From assembly GCA_022565795.1 (NCBI GenBank), contig JAIUMA010000008.1, forward strand, positions 1 to 64,000: a DNA stretch of 64,000 nt. The letters are read 5' to 3'. Position numbers and translations under genes: made by a program. This stretch comes from Balneolia bacterium. GTDB lineage: Bacteria > Bacteroidota > Rhodothermia > Balneolales > Cyclonatronaceae. This document shows positions 52,677-60,051 of the stretch, one piece after another. The notes under the pieces are model-generated. The model was not told the DNA's origin and did no database searches. It saw nothing but the letters and a program-made list of their open reading frames with translations. Numbering within the stretch: the first letter of the stretch is position 1; each line of letters begins with the position of its first letter.

Positions 52677-53867
52677 ATGCGTTATTTATCTCTTACGTTA
52701 ATACTTGCGTTAACCGTATGTATTTCAACACTCCTCAATACACAAACAGCTTTTGCCAGCCAGGATGGTGACACTGGATTTATCATCGATTTAAGAGGTG
52801 AAAGGGTTGATGGCTTTTTCCCTGAAATGAGATCCTTCGATCGTGCAACGGCTATTTTATTTATTCCGGAAGGCGAGACAGTAGCGCAAGAGCTAACCGC
52901 AGATGATTTCCGCTCTGCAGAGTTTGCCACTGGTGAAGTATTCCGTGCATTTCCGGAATCAGTATCAAATGAAGAGGCTCCGGCAGTAATCGGCCAAAAA
53001 ATTCACGACAGTGATATCAGTTTGTATGTTGCCGAGCCTTTTCCACGAGAGCGGTACTTCTTTGCTATAAACCGTGCCGGCAGCCCGGTGTTTATCAGCC
53101 CGAATCGCTACATTATTCAGCTTCGTTCTATCTTTGGTGAATGTGGTACCGTAGTTAGAGAGTACAGCGATATTGCTCAAAACTATACCCCGGGTTACAT
53201 GATGCGTATTTTCCAGGAATACGACAGATGTATGGGCGTGGAAGATGATGTAACGCGTCGTTTTGGCACCGATCTTTATCGTATTAAGTTTGGTGTAATT
53301 GGCGGTCCGTCAAATTCTAAGGTTAATCAGTCGAGCCCGATAGATATATTCAGAAACAACGATTATATATATACAATTGACTATATGGTGGGCATATTTG
53401 CAGATATTCGTCTGCAGAGAAGCTCTATTTTTGTCCGCCCTGAAATCAACTATATGAAGGTTACTTCTGAGGCATCAGGTTTTGATATAGTTAGAAATGT
53501 GGACCAGCAAGCCACCGCAGAACTCGAAATGATAACGCTTGAATTACCGGCAAGATATGAGTTTGGGTTTTGGACTGTCAGACCATATTTAGGCGGTGGT
53601 CTTTCAGTGGCCTATATTTTCAATGAAGATGTATTGATTACCGATACAACCGCAGCTGGAGATGTATTTACAGCCAGGGATATCAATCTAAGCACAAACA
53701 TTTCTCCGGGGTTTCATGCTGTGGCAGGAACGCGGTTTCATGAACTGCTTGGGAGTTTTGATTTATTTACAGAGGTCCGCTACAGATACGCCTATTCCGA
53801 CGAAAAAAGGTTTAATGCACTCAGTGGTATATCAGCCTTCAATTTCCTGGTTGGGATTAGCTTCTAA
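52677..53867 (+). CDS. Outer-membrane barrel paralogue 1 of tandem array
   Basis: 396 residues. Signal peptide (1-27, AFAS), an N-terminal beta-rich domain (about 35-195), a linker and a C-terminal PorT-like barrel domain (about 215-396) ending in a strand with F (NFLVGISF). The barrel half (KFGVIGG ... SKVNQSSPIDIFRN ... RPEINYM ... DLFTEVRYRYAY) matches paralogue 2 closely, whereas the N-terminal half differs from both others. Role unknown. It does not share the upstream block seen before paralogues 2 and 3. Confidence 0.82.
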   Translation: MRYLSLTLILALTVCISTLLNTQTAFASQDGDTGFIIDLRGERVDGFFPEMRSFDRATAILFIPEGETVAQELTADDFRSAEFATGEVFRAFPESVSNEEAPAVIGQKIHDSDISLYVAEPFPRERYFFAINRAGSPVFISPNRYIIQLRSIFGECGTVVREYSDIAQNYTPGYMMRIFQEYDRCMGVEDDVTRRFGTDLYRIKFGVIGGPSNSKVNQSSPIDIFRNNDYIYTIDYMVGIFADIRLQRSSIFVRPEINYMKVTSEASGFDIVRNVDQQATAELEMITLELPARYEFGFWTVRPYLGGGLSVAYIFNEDVLITDTTAAGDVFTARDINLSTNISPGFHAVAGTRFHELLGSFDLFTEVRYRYAYSDEKRFNALSGISAFNFLVGISF

Positions 53868-53904
53868 GTATGAGCTTTAAAACCATGAGCATCGTGTGAG
53901 CTGC

Positions 53905-54005
53905 TTGTGTGATTTTCAGTATCTTTGGGCTCATTTCCAAAACAGGTCAATCACACAAACGCTCATAGTGCTGGTATATATCTATTCAAAACAAAGCAGT
54001 AGAGC
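53905..54005. promoter_or_regulatory. Conserved upstream block with 10-bp inverted repeat, copy 1
   Basis: About 100 bases, nearly identical to 55226-55326 (about 8 differences). Contains TTGTGTGATT (53905-53914) and its complement AATCACACAA (53949-53958), 34 bases apart. Between them is TATCTTTG (53920-53927), a match to the TAnnTTTG -7 promoter box. So a promoter framed by an operator-like dyad, or a leader hairpin. The stretch is also open in the reading frame of the gene, so partial coding cannot be ruled out. Confidence 0.6.
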
Positions 54006-54006
54006 C

Positions 54007-55188
54007 ATGCGTCTGTTTACTTTTTCTCTTCTTCTGCTGGTGGTCTCAGCAGGCTCAGCTTACGCTCAGTCTTCCGCAGATTCTGTAACCGGTAAACTTA
54101 TCACTACTTCTGCCGATACCCTTTACGGCAGTATTCTGCTCGGGGATCAGTACGACCATTCATGGCAGGTACGCTTTCGCGAAAGCGGGGCAAATGACTA
54201 TCAGACGTACGGTCCGGATGAGGTGCACATGTACGACAAAGACGGCAGCTTCCGATACTTCAGCGTGGAAGGTGATTTTGAAGACTACGGGCTTCGGACC
54301 GTATTTATCCGGGAAGACATCGGTGGTGAATTAACACTTTACTCCACCATGGTATCGCGGGAGGAGGCTGCTTTTTTTGTTGGAACAAGGGATGGCCGCC
54401 TGATTTATCTGCAAAGCGGGTTTTATATCGACCAGCTCCGAAGTATATTTTCGGGCTGTAATGAATTTCTGCGCGGCGGAGAACGAGTGAGCCGCAGATA
54501 CCGGCTGACACACGAAGGAATGTATAGTGTATTCACCAGCTATTATGAATGTGCTGATTCAGAAGCTCAATGGAACGTGGAGCCCCGGGGTGTGCATCGC
54601 ACAACAAAATTTGGTGTTATCGCAGGAGCCTCTTACTCAAAAGCTAACCAGTCCAGCCCTATTAGCATCTTTCGGAATGTAGATTATGGGTATACGCTTG
54701 ATTATCTGGCAGGTGTATTTCTTGATATACGTCTTCGGAACACCGGCTTATTCGTACGACCGGAGCTAAACTATATGTACATTAGTTCTGAAGTAACCGA
54801 TTTTGATGCATCAAGAAATGTGGAGAAATTCGCCAGAGCTGAAGTGCACATGATATCCATCGAAGCACCATTCAGGAAAGAGTTTGAATATAGCAATACC
54901 CTGCCTTATTTCGGAGGCGGTGCTTCTGTAGGGTACATTATCGATGAAAATGTCACCCTTACCGAAACCTTCTCAGGCGGTACGGTAGCCAACCAAAATG
55001 AAGTTAGGCTACACACTTATTTTACTCCCGGATTTAATTTAAAAGCTGGCATGCGCTTTGAAGAACTTTTCGGAGACTCTGATCTTTTTACAGAAATTCG
55101 TTACCGGTATGCCTTTACCGACGATCGGAGTTCGAGTGCCCTTAATGGAATCAGGGCTTTTAATTTGATGGTGGGTATAACCTTTTAA
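54007..55188 (+). CDS. Outer-membrane barrel paralogue 2 of tandem array
   Basis: 393 residues from ATG 54007, which begins a good signal peptide (MRLFTFSLLLLVVSAGSAYAQ); the open frame extends to 53896. The N-terminal domain (about 22-190: SVTGKLITTSADTLYGSILL, FRYFSVEGDFED, IDQLRSIFSGCNEFLRGGE) is nearly identical to paralogue 3. The C-terminal barrel (about 200-393, KFGVIAGASYSKANQSSPISIFRN ...) is close to paralogue 1. Thus a mosaic of its neighbours. Role unknown. Confidence 0.82.
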   Translation: MRLFTFSLLLLVVSAGSAYAQSSADSVTGKLITTSADTLYGSILLGDQYDHSWQVRFRESGANDYQTYGPDEVHMYDKDGSFRYFSVEGDFEDYGLRTVFIREDIGGELTLYSTMVSREEAAFFVGTRDGRLIYLQSGFYIDQLRSIFSGCNEFLRGGERVSRRYRLTHEGMYSVFTSYYECADSEAQWNVEPRGVHRTTKFGVIAGASYSKANQSSPISIFRNVDYGYTLDYLAGVFLDIRLRNTGLFVRPELNYMYISSEVTDFDASRNVEKFARAEVHMISIEAPFRKEFEYSNTLPYFGGGASVGYIIDENVTLTETFSGGTVANQNEVRLHTYFTPGFNLKAGMRFEELFGDSDLFTEIRYRYAFTDDRSSSALNGIRAFNLMVGITF

Positions 55189-55225
55189 GACTACTTCTGA
55201 AAACCAGTTGCATCATATGAGCAGT

Positions 55226-55300
55226 TTGTGTGATTTTCAGTATCTTTGGGCTCATTTCCAGAACAAGTCAATCACACAAACGCTCATAGTGTTGGTATAT
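55226..55300. promoter_or_regulatory. Conserved upstream block with inverted repeat, copy 2
   Basis: Second copy of the block at 53905. TTTGTGTGATT and AATCACACAAA (55225-55235, 55270-55280) form an 11-bp inverted repeat around TATCTTTG (55241-55248). Similarity to copy 1 continues into the gene start, to about 55326. Together with copy 1 it shows duplication including control sequence. Confidence 0.6.
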
Positions 55301-56545
55301 ATGTTTTTAAACCAAAGCAGCAGAGTTATACGCCTGCTCATGCTCCCCTTAATTCTGCTGTTGGTTTCAGCAGGTACGGCTCATTCGCAATCTTCTCAGG
55401 ATTCGGTAACAGGCAAGCTCATTACAACAAGCGCCGATACCCTCTATGGCAGCATTCTCCTCGGGGATCAGTACGACCATTCGTGGCGGGTGCGCTTCCG
55501 TGAAGAAGGTGCCGAAAGCTATATCATATATCGCCCGCATGAAGTGTTTATGTATGAAAAAAACGGCAGCTTTAGATACTTCAGCGTAGAAGGTGATTTT
55601 GAAGACGACGGCCTGCTTACCGTATTCATGCGTGAAGACATCAGAGGAGATATTACCTTATACTCAACCAAGTTAACCAGAGACAGGGCTGCTTTTTTAG
55701 TAAGAGAAAGGGACGGACGTCTTTCTTACCTGCAAACTTTATTCTATATCGATCAGCTTCGAAGTATTTTTGCCGGCTGCAATGAATTCCTGCGCGGCGG
55801 GGAGCGCATAAGCCGCAGATACAGACTCACGCACGAAGGAATGTACAGTGCCTTTGCCAGCTATTACGAGTGTGCCGAAAGCGAAGCCCGGTGGGCTGTT
55901 GAACCAGAAGAGACATCTCGCAAAACTCGATTTGGGGTAACGGCAGGCTTTAATACGAGCAACATGCGTATTACCGGTTCCAACAATATTTATCGTGGTG
56001 TTGCATTCGACTATGTACCTGGATATACGTTTGGCGTTTATCTTGATATCCCAGTGTTCTCGAAAAACTTCTTTTTCAAACCCGAGCTATTATTCACATC
56101 CCGGGGAGGGGAAGCTTCGGTACCGTTCCCACTACCAAATCCCCCCGCATTGCTTTTAACAGACGACGAGATTGAGGGTAGTTTCCGATATTTGATGTTT
56201 AACTTTCCATTACGCTATGAAACGTCCCTACTCGGAGTAAACCCCTACATCTCTGGCGGTGGAATAATTGGTATTCTGGTAGGCAGAAACGCTACGGTTA
56301 ACCGACTTACGCTGCCTTTGGATAATGACCCTGATGCTGAAGCTGAGATTATTGAAAATGATTTATTCCAGTTCTACAACGACATTTCACTCGGGTTAAA
56401 TCTGGGGCTGGGCGTACGTATGCCAATCGGGTCGGTTGACTTATTCACGGAAGGACGCTATACCCGAATCTTTTCGAATCTCGACGATAGTGTTGATAGC
56501 TTCAGAACAACCGCGCTGGAAATTCTGGTAGGCTTCTCTTTTTAG
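55301..56545 (+). CDS. Outer-membrane barrel paralogue 3 of tandem array
   Basis: 414 residues from ATG 55301 (MFLNQSSRVIRLLMLPLIL, cut near AHSQ); the upstream frame opens at 55208. The N-terminal domain is nearly identical to paralogue 2 (SVTGKLITTSADTLYG, FRYFSVEGDFEDDG, IDQLRSIFAGCNEF, ISRRYRLTHEGMYSAF), but the C-terminal barrel (about 215-414) is unlike both and has its own loop with Pro-rich FPLPNPPALL. Ends in an outer-membrane-type strand (LEILVGFSF). So the N-module and barrel have been exchanged. Role unknown. Confidence 0.82.
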   Translation: MFLNQSSRVIRLLMLPLILLLVSAGTAHSQSSQDSVTGKLITTSADTLYGSILLGDQYDHSWRVRFREEGAESYIIYRPHEVFMYEKNGSFRYFSVEGDFEDDGLLTVFMREDIRGDITLYSTKLTRDRAAFLVRERDGRLSYLQTLFYIDQLRSIFAGCNEFLRGGERISRRYRLTHEGMYSAFASYYECAESEARWAVEPEETSRKTRFGVTAGFNTSNMRITGSNNIYRGVAFDYVPGYTFGVYLDIPVFSKNFFFKPELLFTSRGGEASVPFPLPNPPALLLTDDEIEGSFRYLMFNFPLRYETSLLGVNPYISGGGIIGILVGRNATVNRLTLPLDNDPDAEAEIIENDLFQFYNDISLGLNLGLGVRMPIGSVDLFTEGRYTRIFSNLDDSVDSFRTTALEILVGFSF

Positions 56546-56616: not shown

Positions 56617-59073
56617 TTAAAAGTTGAGCGTTACTTGCGCCAGCACGTTCCGCTCTGCCTGCGGATAGTAGTAGTTGAAGCGCTGCATTTCGCCCCCGGA
56701 AACAAATCCGAACGTGTAGCCATTGGTCTCATACAGCTCGTTAAAGACATTATTAATCTGGAACGAGCTTGTCATAGATTTAACCAGTGGAATCCTGGTA
56801 GTTGTGTAGCTCAGGCGCAGGTCGGTAACGAAATACGGGTCGATAGAGCGGTCGCGGCTGGATGTGTTGTCCAGATACTGACGTGAAACAAACTGGCTCA
56901 TCAAATCAGCAGAGAAGCCACGGTGAGAAAACCGGAATTGCGATGCCGAAATAACGTTGGGTGACAATGCAATATCGGTGTTTTCATAAATGACGCTTTC
57001 CTGAATTCCGGTATCGAAGTTATCGATGAATTCGGTGTATTCATCAATTTTGTTCTGGCTGAACGTTACATTCCCGCTCCACTCAAGCCAGGGAAGGAAG
57101 CGGTAGCCACCCTCAAGCTCAACACCGGCACGGTAGCTATCGGGCACGTTGGTACGAATAGCCTGACCAACATCATTGATTTCACCGGTTAGAATAAGCT
57201 GGTCATCATAAAGCATATAGTAGAGATTTGCGCCAAAAAATCCTCGGCCAAATTCGCCCCTGTAGCCGGCCTCAAGGTTATACAGTGTTTCCTTGTTCGG
57301 ACGAGAATCGGGCGTTGAGCGTGTGTACTCCCGGCGTGTTGGCTCTTTGCCGGCAACCGAGAAAGAGGTGTACAGACGCTGATTAAGCTGTGCACCAAAA
57401 CGATAAACGAGTCCGGCTTTAGGATTGAAGAACCAGAGCTCATCATCCTGCGTAACGTTGCTCAAGTCGCGGTCGAACCCAAGGAAGCGATAATAAATAC
57501 GGCGAACCTGGGCATCACCGTAAACCGTGAACTGGTCGGTGAGGTTGTAGCTTAGCTTGGCATATACGTTTCCGTCGGTTTTGAAACCGTTGTTGTCGTA
57601 ATAGCGCTCGCGGATATCGCTGTCGCCGGCAAACCTTGCCCAGATAACTTCACCAAAGTGGTCGCCGTCATACTCGTTATATCCGCCGCCTGCTACGAGA
57701 GAAAAGCGATCCTGATTCCATTCGGTAGATGCTACGAAACCGTAGAAATGGTTATCCAGCCAGCGACGACGTATAATATCTGAACGATCGATAATCTCAT
57801 CACCAATTATAATCGGATCAATCTGATAGCTGCTAAGGCGGTCGTTGGCACGGAACTCCTCGAAGTAGCCGCGTCCGTAGGTGTAGTGAAGCGATGCATT
57901 GGCCAGCCAGATGTCGGTCAGGCGGTAGGAGTAATGAAGCTGATAATGATCCTGACGATAGTTATCGGTTTGGTTATCGTAGGTGAATTCATTCATCCGT
58001 CGGTTGTTCTCCAGTTCCGACTCCGGTACGCCGTTCCAGGCCTGGTATGTCTGCTCACGCCCGCTAAGTACGTTTATTTTCAGCAGGCTGCGCTCGCCAT
58101 AACGGCTTCCTGTTAAGGCGTAGGATGAAAGGTCTGAAAACGCACGGTCGATGTATCCGTCGGACTCAATCTTAGACAGGCGCGCGTCGAACGACCAGCC
58201 GTTGTCCAGAAGTCCGGTACCGGCCAGGATATTATGCCTGCGGGTGTTATAGCTTCCAACGGCATTCGTAACCGTGGCATATGGATTCTGATTGAGGCTT
58301 CCCGTTTGAATGTTTACGCTTGCCCCAAAGGCAGCCTGACCATTTGTTGATGTTCCAACACCGCGCTGAATCTGCAGGTTTTCAATAGATGAAGCAAAAT
58401 CGGGCATATTCACCCAAAATACACCGTGTGATTCAGAGTCGTTAAGCGGAATTCCGTTTACAGTTACATTGATGCGGGTAGGATCCACGCCGCGAATGCG
58501 AATTCCGGTATAGCCAATTCCGGCACCAGCGTCAGAAGTTGAAAGCACAGATGGCGCCATCTGAAGCAGAAAGGGCAGATCCTGACCAAGATTACCCTCC
58601 TCGATTTCTTCACGGGTAACGTTGGTGAAGCTCATCGGAGTGGATTCATCAACTCTGAGCCCGGATACGATAACGTCATCGCTCAGGAAAGCATCAAAAT
58701 CGAGATAAATGGACAGGTCGGATGTTTGTCCGGAACGGATACGAAGTTCACGGCTTTGGTAGCCAACGTAGCTTACTTCAATCCGCCGGGCATCGTTTGG
58801 GCGGAGCGTCAGCTCAAAGTATCCACTGTCATTGGTGGATGTTCCGTTTGTAGTATTGGCCTGAAGAACGGTGGCGCCAGGAAGCGGCTCCTGGGTTCTG
58901 GAGTCCATTACCGTCCCGCTAATGCGCGTTTGCGCCTCTGCCTCTTCGACAGTAAAAAGCAGTGTGAAGGTTAACAGTAGACAAAACGCCCCGGAGAGAA
59001 ACCGGAATCTTGTTTTTGGTTGACTGCCAAAGGCAACACGTTCAGTCTGCCCGGCTGTTGTAAAAAGTGACAT
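56617..59073 (-). CDS. TonB-dependent receptor, riboswitch-controlled (probable thiamine receptor)
   Basis: 818 residues. Signal segment near 30-47, carboxypeptidase-D-like N-terminal domain (ISGTVMDSRTQEPLPGATVL ... GYFELTL, about 52-125), plug (about 140-260: FTNVTREEIEEGNLG, IRIRGVDPTRINVTVNG) and a 22-strand barrel ending in VLAQVTLNF. Imports a substrate across the outer membrane with TonB energy. A complete TPP riboswitch upstream on the same strand makes thiamine, its phosphates or precursors the likely ligand; such riboswitch-receptor pairs are known in Bacteroidetes. ATG follows AGGAGG by 6 bases. Confidence 0.9.
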   Translation of the reverse strand: MSLFTTAGQTERVAFGSQPKTRFRFLSGAFCLLLTFTLLFTVEEAEAQTRISGTVMDSRTQEPLPGATVLQANTTNGTSTNDSGYFELTLRPNDARRIEVSYVGYQSRELRIRSGQTSDLSIYLDFDAFLSDDVIVSGLRVDESTPMSFTNVTREEIEEGNLGQDLPFLLQMAPSVLSTSDAGAGIGYTGIRIRGVDPTRINVTVNGIPLNDSESHGVFWVNMPDFASSIENLQIQRGVGTSTNGQAAFGASVNIQTGSLNQNPYATVTNAVGSYNTRRHNILAGTGLLDNGWSFDARLSKIESDGYIDRAFSDLSSYALTGSRYGERSLLKINVLSGREQTYQAWNGVPESELENNRRMNEFTYDNQTDNYRQDHYQLHYSYRLTDIWLANASLHYTYGRGYFEEFRANDRLSSYQIDPIIIGDEIIDRSDIIRRRWLDNHFYGFVASTEWNQDRFSLVAGGGYNEYDGDHFGEVIWARFAGDSDIRERYYDNNGFKTDGNVYAKLSYNLTDQFTVYGDAQVRRIYYRFLGFDRDLSNVTQDDELWFFNPKAGLVYRFGAQLNQRLYTSFSVAGKEPTRREYTRSTPDSRPNKETLYNLEAGYRGEFGRGFFGANLYYMLYDDQLILTGEINDVGQAIRTNVPDSYRAGVELEGGYRFLPWLEWSGNVTFSQNKIDEYTEFIDNFDTGIQESVIYENTDIALSPNVISASQFRFSHRGFSADLMSQFVSRQYLDNTSSRDRSIDPYFVTDLRLSYTTTRIPLVKSMTSSFQINNVFNELYETNGYTFGFVSGGEMQRFNYYYPQAERNVLAQVTLNF

Positions 59074-59079
59074 TTAAGT

Positions 59080-59113
59080 CCTCCTAATATGTTATGAATA
59101 ACAGATTTGGAGG
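59080..59113 (-). promoter_or_regulatory. RBS-sequestering hairpin, riboswitch expression platform
   Basis: The ribosome site AGGAGG (59085-59080, minus) can pair with CCTCC (59113-59109), and TGTTAT/ATAACA inside (59103-59090) adds a second short stem. This can hide the start region of the receptor mRNA and suggests control at translation. Which form wins when TPP is bound cannot be folded by eye. Confidence 0.6.
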
Positions 59114-59208
59114 TGCTTTAACTAACGGTGAGCTCGTTCGCTGCTGTTCTGTTTGTTCATCATCATACAAAAAATAAATATGATAGCATCTGAAACAGAA
59201 TAGCTGCA

Positions 59209-59286
59209 AGGTTTCCCTACGCCGGTATTACCCGGATCAGGTTACGGGGTATGATCTCAGCTCGCTTTTGCAAGCACCCCCAACCT
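59209..59286 (-). ncRNA. TPP (thiamine pyrophosphate) riboswitch
   Basis: On the minus strand the THI element core is present: GGGGGTGC near the 5' end, GCTGAGAT, ACCCC, CCTGATCCGG, TAATACCGGCG and GTAGGGAA. The closing stem P1 is AGGTT (59286-59282) with AACCT (59213-59209). It lies about 135 bases before the TonB receptor start. Binding of TPP normally shuts expression. Confidence 0.95.
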
Positions 59287-59305
59287 CATTGGTTGGTGTG
59301 AATCC

Positions 59306-59313
59306 CAAATTTA
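59306..59313 (-). promoter_or_regulatory. Candidate -7 promoter box of the riboswitch transcript
   Basis: Minus strand TAAATTTG fits TAnnTTTG, about 20 bases before the riboswitch P1 stem, the right place for a start just upstream. No convincing -33 TTTG at 19-base spacing was found. Confidence 0.45.
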
Positions 59314-59432: not shown

Positions 59433-59906
59433 TTAGGCAAGCTCGACCTTCGCAGCTCTTTTTGCGGTCTTTTTCTTCAGGCCCGGCTTTTTCTTAAATC
59501 TGTCGCGTATGATAACCTCAAGACTCGGTGTGCATAAATCATACAGCCTGTTTATCGTAGCCCTGCTGAATGTGACGTCGAGATGTCCGTCTCCGTCCAT
59601 ATCGAGAAAGTCACGTCCTACAAGAATACAGCCCAGCGTATCATGGAAAAAATTGCCGTAATGAATAAGGATTTCGCTACGGCCTTTTACGCCAAAAAGA
59701 AGGATACAGTTGCCAAATCGTGGTGACTGATGACGCATGGCCTGATAGCGCCCTGCCGGGATACAGCTAACCGTGCGTTTATTCTCTCTCCAGGGAAGCT
59801 CAAGCGTTCTGCATTTGAACTTTACTTCTCCGGACTCGTTTATCAGACGAAGCAAGCCTTCGGTCTGAAACTCATTCTGTGCGATGCGATCGACATAGAT
59901 ATACAT
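59433..59906 (-). CDS. DUF5675 family protein
   Basis: 157 residues from the ATG at 59906 (MYIYVDR), preceded by GGAGG 7 bases upstream; the frame opens at 59942. The DUF5675 landmarks are visible: TLELPWRENKRTVSCIPAGRY near 37-57, FGNCILLFGVKGRSEILIHYGN near 67-90 and the late GDFLDMDGDGHLDVTFS-like stretch with the GCILVG block. Function is not established; relatives are often found in phages or integrated elements. C-terminus is Lys-rich (KKKPGLKKKTAKRAAKV). It sits next to a 9-bp tandem repeat and a tRNA gene with a duplicated end. Confidence 0.8.
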   Translation of the reverse strand: MYIYVDRIAQNEFQTEGLLRLINESGEVKFKCRTLELPWRENKRTVSCIPAGRYQAMRHQSPRFGNCILLFGVKGRSEILIHYGNFFHDTLGCILVGRDFLDMDGDGHLDVTFSRATINRLYDLCTPSLEVIIRDRFKKKPGLKKKTAKRAAKVELA

Positions 59907-60051
59907 AATAGACCTCCATAGGGGAGCTTTTTGGAAGATCAACGGATAAGGTGTATTTGTAATATAGTTTTTTTAAAGAGCATCATCTACTGCCAAAGTT
60001 AAGTTTTTACTTAATTTGCCTTAGAACTTTTCGAGGGGAGATTGTAATATT
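59907..60051. other. Intergenic stretch before 9-bp repeat
   Basis: AT-rich, no gene, RNA or hairpin that I could support. It begins at the DUF5675 promoter side and ends at the tandem repeat. Confidence 0.4.

Follow-up and report, generated by a model that had tools for sequence, protein, structure and literature searches.

The gene of a TonB-dependent outer-membrane receptor in the window (the whole stretch of 64,000 nucleotides of the Balneolia contig JAIUMA010000008.1) carries a real, conserved TPP switch in its leader, which probably acts as a TPP-responsive OFF switch on translation of a receptor for outer-membrane thiamine uptake. The aptamer, two pairings of one downstream strand that exclude each other, their conservation and the order of states with transcript length were all computed. 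The features of the leader and the receptor gene are as follows.

59306..59313, minus strand: TAAATTTG, Bacteroidota-type promoter box, read from the sequence and enriched upstream of receptor-linked aptamers
59280..59296, minus strand: possible 5' hairpin CCAACC/GGUUGG, weak, which would capture the P1 5' strand
59197..59291, minus strand: TPP riboswitch aptamer (RF00059, 72.6 bits), P1 formed by 59287-59282 with 59213-59208
59272..59283, minus strand: aptamer switching strand UUGGGGGUGCUU, 12 of 12 pairs, one of them G-U, with 59118-59107
59147..59200, minus strand: spacer hairpin TTCTGTTT...AAACAGAA between the aptamer and the platform, present in every constrained fold shown
59107..59118, minus strand: switching strand AAGCACCUCCAA (also written AAGCACCTCCAA), predicted anti-SD strand in the OFF state and antisequestor arm in the ON state
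59080..59113, minus strand: SD-masking hairpin, CCUCC 59113-59109 with GGAGG 59084-59080, inner stem TGTTAT 59103-59098 / ATAACA 59095-59090
59080..59085, minus strand: ribosome-binding site (SD) AGGAGG, found by inspection 7 bases ahead of the ATG at 59073
56617..59073, minus strand: TonB-dependent outer-membrane receptor, 818 aa, OMthi-like (Pfam PF00593, PF07715, PF13715)

In the proposed mechanism, for which we infer TPP binding, a kinetic trap, the direction of control and the cargo (thiamine or its phosphates), transcription would start just upstream of the aptamer, which would fold first and could bind TPP during synthesis of the spacer. With TPP bound, P1-P2-P3 would be closed, and the emerging anti-SD strand (59118-59107) would be free to mask AGGAGG. 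With no TPP, the same strand would invade the aptamer 5' strand (59283-59272), opening the aptamer and leaving the SD free for the ribosome. By likeness to thiC, the stretch in which TPP is sensed would extend from about 59208 to 59093. Most likely, the receptor is made only when vitamin B1 is scarce.

The match to RF00059 spans 59291-59197 of the minus strand and the full model (positions 1-105 of 105), with 72.6 bits against the gathering score of 54.3. According to the covariance model, this segment is a TPP riboswitch, and it would bind TPP. The search had been suggested by the initial annotation, which placed a complete TPP aptamer about 135 bases ahead of the receptor; the distance from the end of P1 (59208) to the receptor ATG (59073) is 134 bases. 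No second TPP aptamer was found in the 3.59 Mb of the genome. The upstream neighbour of the riboswitch is a gene encoding a DUF5675 protein (59433-59942, minus strand), whose frame ends 120 bases before TAAATTTG.

TPP aptamers were found in 105 of the 116 genomes searched (the window's own genome included). The loci read (110, taken by rank rather than at random, 30 from the search and 80 fetched) yielded 97 distinct aptamers recognised by the pattern. Among them, 65 were assigned to receptors with an SD and 32 remained unassigned; the latter include receptors missed by the pattern but visible by eye (for example, L023, L025, L026, L030, L031, L048, L071, L094, L101), and others precede ThiM-like genes (L005, L008, L014, L034) or other genes. 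L057, lacking the GGGGTG box and lying near a contig edge, was excluded, leaving 64 receptor-linked loci from 26 genera.

The consensus of the Bacteroidota promoter is TAnnTTTG. The box TAAATTTG, proposed initially as a promoter just ahead of the aptamer, is located at 59313-59306 and is recurrent in relatives: all six consensus positions are matched upstream of the aptamer in 18 of the 64 loci (window included), compared to 1.3 expected from shuffles, and at least five of six in 51 of the 64, compared to 18.2. No sigma-70 promoter was found, and the Bacteroidota-type box fits instead. An intrinsic terminator was rejected as the control device of the leader, as none was found on its coding strand, the single match being on the plus strand.

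This bears on a tentative alternative, namely that control is exerted mainly at the RNA level, so that TPP-bound leaders would be left untranslated and then terminated by Rho or degraded, masking being the first step only. Such a scheme has precedents, as thiC and tbpA of E. coli combine control of translation with lower mRNA levels, according to the accessible parts of the two reports (PMC5234074, PMC11487190), but the coding strand of the leader has no intrinsic terminator. RNA-level control adds to the proposed translational switch more than it opposes it.

The Plug (PF07715) and TonB-dependent barrel (PF00593) domains of the receptor are above the cut-off, and a CarboxypepD_reg domain is also present. 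The predicted structure contains the barrel (mean pLDDT 64) and resembles TonB-dependent receptors of many cargoes from PDB, so the cargo cannot be read from this model. Among solved structures, the receptor sequence retrieved only two short SusC-type domains. RF00059 is found upstream, on the same strand, in 61 of the 80 closest receptor homologues kept, which come from across Bacteroidota (18, 15, 16 and 12 of 20 each). Three adjacent plus-strand ORFs at 52677-56545 (396, 430 and 445 aa) appear to be tandem paralogues: the outer-membrane beta-barrel domain PF13568 is matched by the first and the third, and the second has long stretches in common with the third.

The window's own genome lacks ThiC, and so do all the 116 searched (13 of 14 control genomes were positive); the switch may hence guard the entry of a cofactor that these cells cannot make. 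In the own genome, ThiE has only a match below the cut-off, PnuT was not found, and thiamine pyrophosphokinase is present. The frame of the latter, on another contig of this genome (C7; L193, 4638-6673, plus strand), overlaps the frame of a sodium:solute symporter, a candidate for thiamine transport across the inner membrane in this genome, which has no PnuT.

It is unlikely that the receptor, being controlled by TPP, imports some other cargo (for example, a thiamine ester or precursor). The switch does report the need for TPP rather than the cargo, no NCBIfam match (that is, no equivalog) was found above the cut-off, and the PDB fold matches are to receptors of many cargoes. However, precursors would be of little use without ThiC and without ThiE above the cut-off, and thiamine pyrophosphokinase is present. 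Moreover, deletion of OMthi in Bacteroides raises the need for thiamine, as stated in the available portion of the source (PMC5613172), the window receptor being only OMthi-like.

Thiamine uptake remains the preferred function, and its control would depend on the hairpin upstream of the start codon. The hairpin of CCTCC with AGGAGG and the inner stem TGTTAT/ATAACA, described initially, was found where it had been placed. When the window leader is folded alone, freeing the SD costs 10.5 kcal/mol, compared to 4.0 +/- 1.8 in dinucleotide shuffles, only 2 of 400 of which reach this value, and thus the predicted fold masks the ribosome-binding site beyond chance. In 11 loci of the window's family, the outer pairing of CCUCC (or CCUUC) with GGAGG is kept, and the inner stem varies, still folding in each. 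The SD is paired with probability at least 0.80 in all 65 receptor-linked leaders folded alone. Given these predicted hairpins, the coding strand free of terminators and the aptamers upstream of the homologues, the initial proposal of outer-membrane thiamine uptake under translational control is the best reading, with the direction of control and the cargo presumed.

The masking hairpin itself stood as initially described, with no link to the aptamer; our analysis has shown that its anti-SD strand has a second pairing, with the 5' strand of the aptamer. The strand AAGCACCUCCAA (59118-59107) is complementary to UUGGGGGUGCUU (59283-59272) in all 12 positions, with one G-U pair. On the 5' sides of the helices, the latter segment runs from the last bases of P1 through the conserved GGGGUG of P2 into the beginning of the P3 arm. 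As the antisequestor and the SD hairpin use the common strand 59118-59107, they exclude each other, and the predicted pairing would take the aptamer apart. In particular, AAGCA (59118-59114), adjacent to the anti-SD bases, is dispensable for masking and matches the aptamer. With CCUCC held fixed, a match as good as that in the window is modestly unlikely (33 of 2000 shuffles), and the complementarity of the whole aptamer to the whole leader is reached in 1 of 500 shuffles. The bases of the proposed switching strand are now explicit for the control of a probable thiamine receptor in Balneolales.

The relatives show the same relation. With an aptamer upstream, freeing the SD costs 4.5 instead of 10.1 kcal/mol, and the cost is lower in each of the 64 loci. 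The locus's own aptamer frees the SD better than foreign ones in 54 of 64 loci and 23 of 26 genera; the window is an exception, with 5.9 kcal/mol for its own aptamer and 3.7 for foreign ones. With one locus taken per genus, own arms and own leaders give a mean of -19.4 compared to -17.8 when re-paired, and none of 10,000 re-pairings is as good, although the 26 genera are related and not independent. The same result (0 of 10,000, again for related genera) is obtained from the P3 arm and the flank of the anti-SD alone, and re-pairing restricted to the 18 genera whose arm is of the GCUU type gives 7 of 10,000 as good. The flank varies between genera together with the P3 arm, GCUUGC occurring with AAGC or GCAAG, and GCUUGUAC with GUACAGC; no such signal was seen in genera g25 and g38. 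In 59 of 64 loci, the segment that best complements the arm overlaps the anti-SD. Just before the SD emerges, the antisequestor has probability above 0.5 in 55 of 64 loci and 22 of 26 genera, exceeding that with foreign aptamers in 49 loci and 21 genera; it is essentially missing in four genera (g8, g14, g19, g27). As related genera are not independent, all these counts overstate the evidence.

Folding of transcripts of increasing length, with 14 bases held in the polymerase and a model without ligand or tertiary contacts, orders the states. If the transcript ends upstream of the SD, the antisequestor form has -66.1 kcal/mol, which is 9 kcal/mol better than the bare aptamer including P1 (-57.0) and nearly equal to the free ensemble (-67.0). 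Exposure of the SD brings the antisequestor and aptamer forms level (-66.8 and -66.7 kcal/mol), and the free ensemble, in which the SD is masked, is at -71.9, compared to -66.8 for the antisequestor. The probability of P2/P3 is at least 0.84 up to the exposed end 59117 and collapses at 59111; that of the antisequestor is 0.88-0.97 for exposed ends 59105-59087 and then 0.60 at 59081; from the exposed end 59075, the SD hairpin has 0.99 and the antisequestor 0.01. Thus, as the transcript grows, the aptamer helices are followed by the antisequestor and then by the masking hairpin. The probability of P1 is near zero in this model, which has neither ligand nor tertiary contacts.

A free ribosome-binding site was not obtained for the ligand-free full-length RNA at equilibrium: with the SD exposed, it is unpaired with probability 0.17, and the antisequestor has 0.00-0.16. 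Equilibrium switching of the free full-length RNA is thereby ruled out, since the free ensemble masks the SD and, unless kinetics intervene, the switch would stay OFF. The plain fold with and without the aptamer, suggested in the initial annotation, gives an SD masked in the ligand-free full-length minimum, and the fold alone does not show switching. The equilibrium model predicts a platform open only within a short range of transcript lengths and masked afterwards. As the ligand-free full-length fold keeps the SD masked, the ON state would have to be co-transcriptional, that is, kinetic.

The masked SD of the predicted ligand-free full-length RNA would also be expected from a static hairpin that sets a low basal level of translation, the aptamer having little or no effect, and the window's own aptamer freeing the SD less than foreign ones points the same way. 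Nevertheless, such a hairpin does not need AAGCA, which matches the aptamer and changes with the P3 arm between genera, and the aptamer is intact and conserved ahead of the receptor; we consider this explanation quite improbable. Direct occlusion of the ribosome-binding site by the aptamer end, with an incidental downstream hairpin, is of a type known for TPP switches, as the consulted part of one paper has it (PMC2258182), and agrees with the start codons 4-7 bases after the aptamer in L013 and L043, but hardly applies to the window, where more than 120 bases separate P1 from the SD and the latter is masked by a strand of its own. In L013 and L043, which are order-level relatives, this short distance to the receptor start codon suggests direct masking of the ribosome-binding site by the aptamer end.

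The proposed kinetic switch could have one more element on the 5' side. A hairpin with at least five pairs is found there in 58 of 64 loci, compared to 39.5 expected, but its mean pairing probability (0.69) is no better than that of shuffles (0.66). With only the five-pair count in excess, it was rejected as a firm part and kept as a possibility. Upstream of the aptamer in L035, L038 and L098, AACC...GGTT surrounds an inner stem that differs by locus yet is paired (GTAGTTTAACTAC, GTAGCAAAAGCTAC), which hints at a maintained 5' hairpin. A two-sided lock, in which the 5' CCAACC arm would take the P1 5' strand and the downstream anti-SD strand would take P2/P3, is a rather doubtful extension; it would belong to ThiC-less Balneolales reliant on thiamine import, with a platform evolved around the strong SD that most other receptor leaders of Bacteroidota lack. 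Such a design is not described for TPP switches in the literature consulted.

In Bacteroidota, a strong SD is found in 6 of 8 Balneolia loci (one Balneolia start being mis-set), compared to 2 of 52 other loci; 60 of 61 loci were counted (L141 has no start), and the start taken for L119 is wrong, GGAGG being visible there. The same design was therefore rejected for the rest of Bacteroidota, where the SD is present in those 2 of 52 loci and the cost of opening the start codon is unchanged (4.5 and 4.4 kcal/mol). Complementarity between aptamer and leader has p <=0.05 in 20 of the 52 other loci. Under whole-leader shuffles, a weaker test than the re-pairing centred on the anti-SD, 1 of 8 Balneolia loci reaches p 0.05.

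In six flavobacterial leaders (L147, L160, L178, L179, L183, L186, at about 560-740), CCCCT is seen by eye to be complementary to AGGGG of the aptamer, and the TTCTTGTT-like bases after it might pair with AACAAGAA of the initial codons; these leaders may be a version without SD that masks the start codon. In the leader of L159 (350-448 and just beyond), the first aptamer is followed by another TPP-aptamer-like stretch (GGGGTGCC...CTGAGATTATACCC...ACCTGATCCGGATAATGCCGGCGTAGGGAAA), which may make a tandem riboswitch. For studies on the evolution of kinetic switches, the numerous diverged leaders provide a natural test set.

Among known systems, the translational TPP riboswitch of E. coli thiM masks the SD by an anti-SD strand depending on TPP, and the proposed OFF state is similar in this respect. 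PMC7366714 cites a preprint of 2019 (Costliow, Degnan and Vanderpool) whose subject is transcriptional or translational control in Bacteroides. The pairing of receptor and riboswitch, which the initial annotation held to be known in Bacteroidetes, is indeed exemplified by OMthi (BT2390) of B. thetaiotaomicron, where a TPP aptamer precedes a TonB-dependent receptor with a role in thiamine uptake established by deletion, as given in the parts of the papers at hand (PMC5613172, PMC7366714 for the arrangement; PMC5613172 for the deletion). The level of control by TPP switches in Bacteroidetes is called uncertain in the portion of that 2017 study consulted (PMC5613172), and the window is likened to BT2390 by gene arrangement. 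A search of the accessible literature found no paper naming both Balneolaceae and riboswitch.

The closest parallel is with thiC and tbpA of E. coli. Switching by antisequestors is an established mechanism (PMC2258182) and has been measured for these two leaders (PMC5234074, PMC11487190), as far as the accessible text of these papers goes. In both, and by prediction in the window, a TPP aptamer is combined with a long-range stem between the aptamer 5' part and a downstream strand, which excludes P1 and the ribosome-site hairpin, and the ON state is favoured while the ribosome-binding site is held back and not in the free full-length RNA. In thiC, the anti-P1 stem forms while the polymerase holds back the ribosome-binding site, and the anti-P1 form is not the predominant one in the ligand-free full-length RNA, according to the same part of the report (PMC5234074). 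By this analogy, SD exposure at equilibrium would not be a defining trait of kinetic members such as thiC. The window differs from thiC and tbpA in the gene and lineage, the product being an outer-membrane receptor, in the 95-base spacer with its own hairpin and in the arm reaching into P2/P3. It is a clear fresh example of a known switch type with an explicit switching strand, which would work, as we judge from this likeness, by the anti-P1 scheme of thiC and tbpA, here in Balneolia and on an OMthi-like receptor.
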